A DNA stretch of 64,000 nucleotides. It comes from Umboniibacter marinipuniceus (GTDB lineage: Bacteria > Pseudomonadota > Gammaproteobacteria > Pseudomonadales > DSM-25080). Each line of letters starts with the position of its first letter. The first letter of the stretch is position 1. The notes below the pieces were generated by a model. The model saw nothing but the letters and a program-made list of their open reading frames with translations, did not search any database and was not told the origin of the DNA. The position numbers and the translations under genes are program-made. This document shows positions 21,262 to 61,086 of the stretch, piece after piece. The stretch is taken from NCBI RefSeq assembly GCF_003688415.1, contig NZ_REFJ01000003.1:1-64000 (forward strand). The letters are read 5' to 3'.

Positions 21262-23461
<2,200 letters not shown>

Positions 23462-23635
23462 AGTATTCTCTGAGTATATTTTGCGCGCGCAACCTTAGCG
23501 AAAAACCCCGCCAATTACCACTTCGGAATACTATCTATAAATAGCAAGTGCTACCTAAAGTGAGATGCGACCGCTCACGCATCACTGAAAAATAGCCTAA
23601 CTGCATTAAAAACAGCAACTTAGCCACAAAGTTGG

Positions 23636-23664
23636 TTGACAGCTCTAGAGCTCATAAGTAATAT
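23636..23664 (+). promoter_or_regulatory. tRNA-Leu promoter
   Basis: A perfect TTGACA (23636-23641), a 17-nt spacer and TAATAT (23659-23664) are followed by a GC-rich discriminator (GCGCCCC). Such discriminators are typical of stable-RNA promoters under stringent control. The predicted start near 23671 leaves a leader of about 86 nt before the tRNA. Confidence 0.8.
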
Positions 23665-23756
23665 GCGCCCCATACACGACAGTGCTTCTAATAATTCAAG
23701 GTTCTCGGCTTATTGGCTTGAATCTTAGCTAGAATTATAGCCATACGTGTTGCTGT

Positions 23757-23842
23757 GCCAGTGTGATGAAATTGGTAGACATAGGGGATTCAAAATCCCC
23801 CGCTGAATAAGCGTGGCGGTTCGAGTCCGCCCACTGGTACCA
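23757..23842 (+). tRNA. tRNA-Leu (anticodon CAA)
   Basis: An 86-nt class II tRNA. The acceptor GCCAGTG pairs with CACTGGT (a G-U at the first position). The D-loop contains GGTAGAC, the anticodon stem-loop is GGGGATTCAAAATCCCC with CAA at the anticodon, a long variable arm follows (CGCTGAATAAGCG), and the T-arm is GGCGGTTCGAGTCCGCC. The 3' CCA is encoded (23840-23842). It is followed directly by its terminator and by an array of copies of its own 3' end. Confidence 0.97.
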
Positions 23843-24205
23843 TACAAATTAATGCCTCGCGAATGCGGGGCATTTTTGTATGTGGCCTGGGGGCGTCGAG
23901 ACCGCCACTCCGGTTCGACTCATTACGACTTAGGAGTAATGAGAATCGATGCGAGCCTGCGAGCCATCGCCCGAAGGGGCAAAACAGCCAATGCTGTTTT
24001 GAATCGTCCGCCCACTGGTACCATACAAATTAATGCCTCGCGAATGCGGGGCATTTTTGTAAATGCTGTTTTGAATCGTCCGCCCACTGGTACCATACAA
24101 ATTAATGCCTCGCGAATGCGGGGCATTTTTGTAAATGCTGTTTTGAATCGTCCGCCCACTGGGGCCATACAAATTAATGCCTCGCGAATGCGGGGCATTT
24201 TTGTA
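23825..24205 (+). repeat. Tandem array of tRNA-Leu 3'-end plus terminator units (rtT-like)
   Basis: A 56-bp block at 23825-23880 consists of the last 18 nt of tRNA-Leu, including CCA, then a short spacer and the terminator hairpin. It recurs at 24006-24061, 24078-24133 and 24150-24205. The last three are preceded by AATGCTGTTTTGAATC, making exact 72-bp tandem units (23990-24205). The final copy differs by TA to GG just before CCA. A unique stretch of about 109 bp (23881-23989) separates the first copy from the array; it holds inverted repeats (CTCATTAC/GTAATGAG and AAAACAG/CTGTTTT) and a T-arm-like CGGTTCGACTC. The architecture resembles the E. coli tyrT rtT repeats, which also begin with a copy of the tRNA 3' end. 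Because 72 is a multiple of 3, open frames cross the array on both strands; they are artefacts. Confidence 0.9.
23851..23876 (+). terminator. tRNA-Leu terminator (first of four copies)
   Basis: AATGCCTCGC (23851-23860) pairs with GCGGGGCATT (23865-23874), with one T-G pair and a GAAT loop, followed by a T-run. Identical copies occur in the downstream repeats at 24032-24057, 24104-24129 and 24176-24201, so any read-through transcript meets three more terminators. Confidence 0.9.
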
Positions 24206-24261
24206 GGTTGAAAATCCGAGTAGAAGCGTTCATGCTTTCGGGATAACAAACGGGAGTACTA

Positions 24262-25719
24262 ATGGATACCTACCTTCTCATTTCAATCGGCAGCTATTTT
24301 CTAGTCATGCTCGCCATCGGTCTTTACGCCTACCGAAACACCCAAGATGATGTTGAAGGATACCTTTTAGGTGGCCGACAACTCAGTCCCGGCGTGATGG
24401 CGTTATCCGCAGGCGCCTCGGACATGAGCGGCTGGATTCTTATGGGACTCCCAGGTGCTATGTTCATAAGCGGCTTGTCGTCCGCATGGATTGCGGTTGG
24501 CCTAATAATCGGCGCCTACTTTAATTATCGACTGGTTGCCCCACGCCTTCGAATTTACACAGAACTCGCTAACGATGCCGTGACTATTCCGGACTTTCTA
24601 GGCAGTCGGTTTAGTAATGACGGTCAAGCGCTGCGAACCATCTCGGCACTGGTGATTGTCGTCTTCTTTACTTTGTATACCTCTGCAGGCCTCGTAGCCG
24701 GGGGAAAGCTCTTTGAATCGGCCTTCGGTCAGAGCTATGAGCTGGGCATTATGATTACCGCAGCGGTAGTCGTTGCCTATACGCTGTTCGGCGGCTTTCT
24801 CGCTGTTAGTCTTACTGACTTCGTGCAGGGCTGTATTATGTTCATCGCCCTGGTAGTTGTACCTGTTGTCGCTTTTACACTGACAGATGCTCCGTTTGAT
24901 AGCCTTCAACAGATAGACCCTCAGCTACTACAAATGACAACAGGCGTGAGTATTATCGCCATAATTTCTAGTGCAGCATGGGGGTTGGGCTATTTTGGTC
25001 AACCTCATATCATTGTCCGCTTTATGGCCATTCGCTCAATCCGAGAGTTACCCACTGCGCGACGTATTGGTATGGGGTGGATGATTATTTCCGTATTAGG
25101 TGCCCTAGGCGTGGGTCTAATTGGACGCGCATACAGCAGCGAATTCAACGTCGATATTGCTGACCCCGAAACGATATTTATCGTGCTTTCGCAAATCATC
25201 TTTCATCCTCTTATTGCGGGCTTCCTCTTAGCTGCCATTCTTGCGGCCATTATGAGTACCATCTCATCACAGCTATTAGTCTCGGCTAGCTCCCTTAGCG
25301 AAGACCTCTTTCACAAGCTCTTTGCAAAGAACGCCTCCTCTTCTCACGTCGTGGTTATTGGTAGGTTATCGGTGGTCGCGGTCTGTCTAGTAGCAGGATG
25401 GCTAGCGATGGATCCCAGCGAGAGTATTCTAGGCCTTGTTGGTAATGCTTGGGCTGGCTTCGGGGCGGCCTTCGGGCCAGTGATTCTACTCGCACTATTT
25501 TGGCGAAACCTCAGTTATTGGGGTGCGGTACTTGGGATGATTACAGGCGCTGCGGTGGTACTAGTCTGGATTAAACTAGGACTGAGCGGAGTGATTTATG
25601 AAATCGTTCCAGGCTTCGTAGCGGGTTTGATCACCGCCATCATCGCTAGCCTCTTAACCCCTAAACCAAATCAGCTAAAACTAGCTGTATTTGATGAAAT
25701 GAAGCGTCAGTTAGACTAA
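24262..25719 (+). CDS. putP: Sodium:solute symporter, sodium/proline symporter (PutP-like)
   Basis: A Na+-coupled symporter of the SSS family, 485 aa with about 13 transmembrane helices. The N-terminus (YFLVMLAIGLYAYRNTQDD, then YLLGGRQLSPGVMALSAGASDMSGW) matches PutP closely, including the S57-type Ser and the ASDMSGW segment of the proline transporter. The FGGFLAVSLTDFVQG and LGYFGQPHIIVRFMA motifs are also typical. It imports proline, or possibly a related amino acid, across the inner membrane. It is monocistronic, between the tRNA-Leu repeat array and a strong terminator. Confidence 0.9.
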   Translation: MDTYLLISIGSYFLVMLAIGLYAYRNTQDDVEGYLLGGRQLSPGVMALSAGASDMSGWILMGLPGAMFISGLSSAWIAVGLIIGAYFNYRLVAPRLRIYTELANDAVTIPDFLGSRFSNDGQALRTISALVIVVFFTLYTSAGLVAGGKLFESAFGQSYELGIMITAAVVVAYTLFGGFLAVSLTDFVQGCIMFIALVVVPVVAFTLTDAPFDSLQQIDPQLLQMTTGVSIIAIISSAAWGLGYFGQPHIIVRFMAIRSIRELPTARRIGMGWMIISVLGALGVGLIGRAYSSEFNVDIADPETIFIVLSQIIFHPLIAGFLLAAILAAIMSTISSQLLVSASSLSEDLFHKLFAKNASSSHVVVIGRLSVVAVCLVAGWLAMDPSESILGLVGNAWAGFGAAFGPVILLALFWRNLSYWGAVLGMITGAAVVLVWIKLGLSGVIYEIVPGFVAGLITAIIASLLTPKPNQLKLAVFDEMKRQLD

Positions 25720-57213: not shown

Positions 57214-57288
57214 TGGGGTGTAGCCAAGTGGTAAGGCAACGGGTTTTGATCCCGTCATGCGTAGGTTCGAGCCCTACCACCCCAGCCA
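57214..57288 (+). tRNA. tRNA-Gln (anticodon TTG), copy 1
   Basis: 75 nt with acceptor TGGGGTG pairing with CACCCCA, a TTTTGAT anticodon loop (anticodon TTG), a T-arm GTAGGTTCGAGCCCTAC and an encoded CCA. It lies between ispE and prs, the classical Pseudomonas-like position. The sequence is identical to the two copies near 61 kb. No separate promoter was identified, so it is likely processed from the ispE transcript. Confidence 0.97.
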
Positions 57289-60920: not shown

Positions 60921-60995
60921 TGGGGTGTAGCCAAGTGGTAAGGCAACGGGTTTTGATCCCGTCATGCGTAGGTTCGAGCCCTACCACCCCAGCCA
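60921..60995 (+). tRNA. tRNA-Gln (anticodon TTG), copy 2
   Basis: 75 nt, identical in sequence to the copy at 57214, with encoded CCA. First of two tandem copies 16 bp apart, with its own promoter upstream. Confidence 0.97.
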
Positions 60996-61011: not shown

Positions 61012-61086
61012 TGGGGTGTAGCCAAGTGGTAAGGCAACGGGTTTTGATCCCGTCATGCGTAGGTTCGAGCCCTACCACCCCAGCCA
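61012..61086 (+). tRNA. tRNA-Gln (anticodon TTG), copy 3
   Basis: 75 nt, identical to copies 1 and 2, with encoded CCA. It lies 16 bp after copy 2 and is probably co-transcribed with it. The following 230 bp up to tRNA-Met hold nothing I can identify apart from the tRNA-Met promoter. Confidence 0.97.

Follow-up and report, generated by a model that had tools for sequence, protein, structure and literature searches.

Behind the tRNA-Leu(CAA) gene in the window (the whole stretch of 64,000 nucleotides of Umboniibacter marinipuniceus DNA analysed here), the 3′ end of the tRNA and its terminator recur as a short array, which raises the question of what this array is and how it came to lie there. 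The explanation that we prefer, with a probability of roughly 0.8, is that it consists of one diverged full-length unit of the RtT RNA family (Rfam RF00391) and two extra 72-bp copies amplified by slippage, forming a decaying and mostly silent insertion. The features on which the argument draws are as follows.

22403–23461, − strand: queA, upstream divergent neighbour (TIGR00113, 486 bits, above cut-off)
23636–23664, + strand: putative sigma-70 promoter of tRNA-Leu(CAA), TTGACA-17-TAATAT (consensus scan 10/12)
23757–23842, + strand: tRNA-Leu(CAA) (ARAGORN; Rfam tRNA, 50.7 bits)
23825–23880, + strand: 56-bp block copy 1 (tRNA nt 59–76 and terminator)
23843–23880, + strand: intrinsic terminator of tRNA-Leu(CAA), between the tRNA and the RtT unit
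23874–24023, + strand: full-length, divergent RtT unit (covariance models R1 and R2)
23886–23908, + strand: 5′ arm, antisense to the tRNA-Leu 3′ end and T-arm (degenerate copy)
23912–23918, + strand: GGTTCGA, sense T-arm nt 52–58, 3′ strand of the first hairpin
23919–24001, + strand: core hairpins 23919–23943, 23947–23969, 23969–23980 and 23980–24001 (folds and model alignments)
23990–24061, + strand: 72-bp unit 1, its first 16 bp being the 3′ end of the full RtT unit
24006–24061, + strand: 56-bp block copy 2, 100% identical (3′ strand of the RtT closing helix, CCA, terminator)
24062–24133, + strand: 72-bp unit 2, identical to unit 1 and equal to the RtT unit minus 109 bp
24078–24133: 56-bp block copy 3, 100% identical
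24134–24205, + strand: 72-bp unit 3, 97% identical, with TA replaced by GG at 24163–24164
24150–24205: 56-bp block copy 4, with two mismatches, at 24163–24164
24206–24217, + strand: first part of the conserved GGTTGAAAATCC block ahead of putP, also present in the sister species (G002)
24262–25719, + strand: putP, sodium/proline symporter, downstream neighbour (TIGR02121, 682 bits, above cut-off)

The 56-bp block, which comprises the last 18 nt of tRNA-Leu(CAA) including the CCA and the terminator, is present four times (starting at 23825, 24006, 24078 and 24150), as a sequence-only reading of this DNA had observed. That reading also described three exact 72-bp tandem units; there are three, and the first two are identical, but the third is not an exact copy. 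The repeat copies are confined to this one place in the 2.69-Mb genome, and identity over such a length is far beyond chance. The terminator hairpin folds at −19.8 kcal/mol (z −5.5), and a terminator scan marks 23851–23874. The last array copy stops at GGTTGAAAATCC, so that the array abuts this block and leaves it intact; judged by sequence, it occupies the former spacer between the tRNA and putP. The promoter block is likewise kept in the sister species. The 5′ leader of tRNA-Leu in the window (23665–23756) is about 80 nt longer than that of the sister species, in which the tRNA directly follows the promoter; in a search for a source of this leader outside its own genome only the tRNA itself was matched, and no source was found in the order.

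The 181 bp between block copies 1 and 2 correspond to one full RtT unit, and the 109 bp extending from copy 1 to the first 72-bp unit (23881–23989), which the sequence-only reading passed over, are RtT body rather than filler. R1, a six-helix model made from 22 units behind tRNAs (excluding those of the window and of G088, a genome from a different family within the order), has a sole match in the window, 23874–24023, which ends at the CCA of copy 2 and scores 17.4 bits with an E-value of 0.0055 in 85 kb, and this is also the top match genome-wide, at an E-value of 0.17 only; these values are rough, as stated by the search tool itself. R2, made from 53 units including that of G088 and other members of the order, again excluding the window, scores the same interval at 32.1 bits (E 2.6e-7 in 66 kb, equally rough), although part of the gain may reflect the tRNA-Leu end shared with the G088 unit. 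In a genome-wide R2 search 23874–24023 is not among the matches listed, apparently owing to the first-look filter, which scored only 150 of 229 candidates. RF00391 itself (Rfam cut-off 45 bits) gives no above-threshold match in the window or the genome, where its hits are noise; many matches behind tRNAs elsewhere are likewise below this cut-off, which suggests that the threshold is narrower than the family. A permissive Rfam scan of 801 bp returned weak sub-threshold hits to isrJ, GcvB and leaders only (E 0.0055–10), which we disregarded.

The match to the models begins at 23874, behind the tRNA that ends at 23842. The end of the unit copies the adjacent tRNA over 18 of 18 nt, CCA included (the family norm is 18–19), and its period of 181 bp compares with a median RtT spacing of 178 bp in the family and with 178 bp in E. 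coli. The 5′ arm scores 12 against its own tRNA, compared with a mean of 7.2 and a maximum of 11 for 53 tRNAs of other isotypes, and GGTTCGA is invariant across the RtT alignment. The unit folds at −55.9 kcal/mol (z −2.75), with the closing helix and core hairpins present; its third hairpin is poorly formed, and several pairs are broken in the R2 alignment. The E. coli K-12 tyrT repeats are laid out in the same way, with GGNNGAGAACC and GGTTCGAC followed by hairpins and finally by the tRNA 3′ end. Like rttR of that operon, the window unit lies just behind a tRNA and combines an antisense arm, the GGTTCGA hairpin, several core hairpins and a copy of tRNA nt 59–76 with CCA; it differs in following tRNA-Leu rather than tRNA-Tyr, in scoring below the Rfam cut-off, in the terminator that precedes each unit, and in consisting of one full unit only, followed by short core-less derivatives. 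The window thus lacks the tandem series of complete units known from E. coli, although single-unit loci elsewhere (as in G088) indicate that such a series is not essential to RtT. We conclude that 23874–24023 is a divergent member of the RtT family, and the description of the locus as rtT-like proves to have been too cautious, since the covariance models and the shared anatomy make it a true homologue.

Comparison of the 72-bp and 181-bp units reveals a common prefix of 56 nt and a common suffix of 16 nt, which together account for all 72, such that exactly 109 bp are missing; the junction reads TTTTTGTA/AATGC. The join is without microhomology, and its breakpoints lie at the foot of the terminator and in the loop of the last hairpin. 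What the short units retain is the tRNA end, the terminator and only half of the last hairpin; the antisense arm and the core are gone, and one of the units folded alone forms only the terminator and a small stem. They accordingly read as internal-deletion derivatives of the 181-bp RtT unit, and the loss of 109 bp is the outcome that would be expected of slippage across a folded strand. Among the possibilities that the sequence-only reading listed for the extra copies, a recombination relic fits best; the notion of tRNA-end decoys gains no support, as these copies lack the strand pairing with the mock acceptor and each lies behind a terminator. We dropped two ideas concerning the spacer: TTTTGAATC, for which a link to the anticodon loop had seemed possible, is the 3′ half of the last RtT hairpin, and an inverted spacer match to 23605–23617 was judged to be chance.

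Across the family, 91 loci have an upstream tRNA or tmRNA gene (Ser, Tyr, Gln, Arg, Asp, Lys, Leu, Pro, Val, Met and tmRNA). The 3′ end of the unit copies nt 58/59–76 of the adjacent tRNA, the match reaching 18–19 nt back from the CCA in 61 of the 69 loci that are measurable (those in which 10 nt or more are copied exactly); the other 22 of the 91 have diverged ends or misplaced model ends. This edge in the T-loop is sharp irrespective of the tRNA, nine tRNA/tmRNA types being represented among the measurable loci, whilst the rightward match is variable in length (0–161 nt) and often runs through the terminator. The 5′ arm is a degenerate antisense copy that fits its own tRNA above the other-isotype mean in 54 of 55 loci (Wilcoxon p 1.4e-10, over loci that are not phylogenetically independent), and the bases before GGTTCGA track the local T-stem (p 1.3e-10, over similarly non-independent loci), as would also be expected of any stem obliged to pair with an antisense arm. 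Covariation is evident with both models: for R1, 89.4% of cells are paired compared with 74.1% after shuffling, with 115 double-change cells compared with 36.8; for R2, whose alignment was fitted to the model and shows stronger covariation, 92.2% of cells are paired and 357 double-change cells compare with 93.7 ± 7.8 after shuffling. Structured-RNA covariation in the RtT family is thus real.

The order of elements in a unit is thus an antisense tRNA end, sense nt ~49–58, the core, and sense nt 59–76. An RtT unit is built from the tRNA that it follows, as a degenerate antisense copy of the 3′ end and then a sense copy of about nt 49–76; a core of about 80 nt with four hairpins interrupts the latter in the T-loop, separating nt 58 from nt 59. 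In the RNA, the antisense arm pairs with nt 59–76, giving a self-closed structure with a tRNA-like 3′ end and CCA. tmRNA (ssrA) genes also precede RtT units (L136, L139 and L211), and the tmRNA 3′ end is copied in L136 and L211. At a tRNA-Ser locus (L112, 1501–1656, minus strand) the antisense arm seems to extend beyond the T-arm towards the variable arm, suggesting that the antisense copy can exceed what the helix needs. In one tRNA-Tyr/tRNA-Gly cluster, RtT units are closely followed by a match to a group II intron, at 115.5 bits (L114, 2248–2395).

With RF00391 at E-values up to 0.05, matches occur in 92 of 369 genomes sampled from the class (23 above cut-off), and the best loci lie nearly all directly behind tRNA genes. 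R1 has matches in 88 of 398 genomes sampled from the phylum, other classes included, and R2 in 96 of 195 genomes of the order to which the window belongs (56 of 96 genera), with up to 17 per genome. Ten tRNA isotypes, as well as tmRNA, are followed by units, most of which have ends that match the gene in question and the edge at nt 58/59. A tandem run of at least six RtT units, repeating every 167 bp or so, is found at G895:C5:242164-243127, and five of these units score identically. Another genome of the same genus as the window (G001) contains three RtT units elsewhere in the genome, one of which is behind tRNA-Arg. Three tRNA-Gln(TTG) genes of one sequence lie within 4 kb in the window itself (57214–57288, 60921–60995 and 61012–61086, two of them in tandem), with no RtT match behind them by R2.

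At the same locus in the sister species G002, sequence comparison, R1 and R2 gave neither an RtT unit nor an array. In G088 an RtT-like unit lies behind tRNA-Leu(CAA), next to queA, and in G165, of the same genus as G088, tRNA-Leu(CAA) is without a unit. The G088 unit resembles that of the window in its tRNA, its queA neighbour, the duplication of the terminator together with the tRNA end, and the stretch between its tRNA-end copies, which is similar to 23881–23989; its spacing is 178 bp. It differs in being a single full unit lacking 72-bp derivatives, and its hairpins are better preserved (R1, 28.9 bits). The sequence-only reading had held that absence from close relatives and from long-read assemblies would mark the repeats as an assembly artefact; they are indeed absent from the sister species, yet the unit is present in G088 and in about half of the genomes of the order, such that the comparison shows gain or loss of RtT between close relatives and not an artefact. 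The T-stem and acceptor bases of the window tRNA (23757–23842) are as in genomes of other families (G026, G088 and G165) and unlike those of the sister species, so that the tRNA may have been exchanged along with its RtT unit.

An alternative account concerns the arrival of the unit, and is compatible with the decaying insertion that we favour: a segment of about 181 bp would have integrated site-specifically at the tRNA T-loop, in the manner of an att site, with copy 2 as the displaced tRNA end. The sharp left edge at nt 58/59, across nine tRNA/tmRNA types, is in keeping with this, and integrase crossovers in the T-loop are known, according to PMC1762012, from phage Ms6 in tRNA-Ala; in island relics left by tyrosine integrases (attR), too, the tRNA 3′ end is repeated directly and the repeat has its edge within the T-loop. 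However, no integrase is located nearby, the 109 + 16 bp from the terminator to copy 2 contain no gene or cargo, and the unit spans only about 180 bp. The antisense 5′ arm, matched to the local tRNA, is a feature that att sites lack and is not a product of ordinary integration, and the T-loop edge coincides with the end of an RNA helix. A distant blastn search for a phage source of the array gave only tRNA-Leu genes and scattered short matches, and an exact pattern of part of the spacer had four unrelated matches in viral contigs, none near a tRNA. We regard site-specific integration as unlikely.

Somewhat less likely still is that the locus is a working RNA gene, in which read-through past the tRNA terminator would yield an RtT RNA that serves either as a small RNA or to decoy the enzymes that process tRNAs, with short CCA-ended fragments arising from the extra copies. 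RtT RNAs are made in E. coli and have been detected on northern blots in Actinobacillus pleuropneumoniae, and their release from several tRNA operons and occurrence in Pasteurellaceae are already known (PMC4986893); the E. coli rtT RNA, as cited in PMC4986893, is released from the tRNA transcript and is linked to the stringent response. The strong covariation of the family also shows selection on RNA structure. In the window, by contrast, both the antisense arm and the third hairpin show wear, the pairing strand and the core are missing from the extra copies, and the sister species manages without the unit. The strong terminator between the tRNA and the unit implies that RtT RNA could be formed only via read-through; together with the terminators that follow, it makes a decaying amplified insertion likelier than a dedicated small RNA gene.

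The view of the sequence-only reading, that the tRNA end and terminator were reiterated by recombination as an independent analogue unrelated to RtT and with a different unit length, is very improbable: simple tandem duplication could yield 72-bp repeats, and the RF00391 cut-off is not reached, but the R1 and R2 matches stop precisely at the CCA of copy 2, and the antisense arm, the GGTTCGA hairpin, GCCCGAAGGG and the 181-bp period all fit the RtT family. An assembly artefact of short tandem units is equally improbable; although two of the 72-bp units are identical, short reads could miscount them and the assembly comprises 16 contigs, the array is internal to a 447-kb contig, two differences are private to the third unit, and neither the full unit nor its relatives in other genomes depend on the copy count. 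A protein-coding repeat can be dismissed almost entirely, for the frame 23813–24211, which stays open over 132 aa since a repeat of 72 bp, divisible by 3, preserves the phase, has no NCBIfam match and starts inside the tRNA, the minus-strand frame is also open and the sister species has nothing like the repeat, even though the E. coli unit overlaps the annotated tpr gene.

According to the preferred explanation of a decaying insertion, an RtT unit would have entered, or been copied, behind tRNA-Leu and then decayed, as its weak R1 score, broken pairs and worn third hairpin suggest. One 181-bp copy would subsequently have lost 109 bp, and the short product would have been amplified in tandem, although this order of events is reconstructed. 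The unit has presumably lost its function, and our guess is that its expression is low. The insertion with its short repeats now probably serves chiefly to provide extra terminators between the tRNA and putP; these may protect putP, which would then be a side effect.

The RtT family and its structure, including the tandem GA motif (PMC7657543), are already known; in our partial coverage of the literature, neither the tailoring of both arms to the local tRNA nor the breadth of the family seen here was described. Hitherto RtT has been regarded chiefly as something that the E. coli tyrT operon produces, and the survey shows a wider presence. Tentatively, and with rather less than even confidence, we suggest that RtT units might be small mobile or self-copying elements which target the T-loops of tRNA and tmRNA genes, both arms being rebuilt from each target. 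If so, one conserved core would stand behind many tRNAs with its sense and antisense ends tailored to each, and the window would represent a late stage of such an insertion. How one core gains arms fitted to different tRNAs is a testable question, and the tailoring of the arms bears on tRNA 3′ processing and on why DNA elements favour tRNA 3′ ends.
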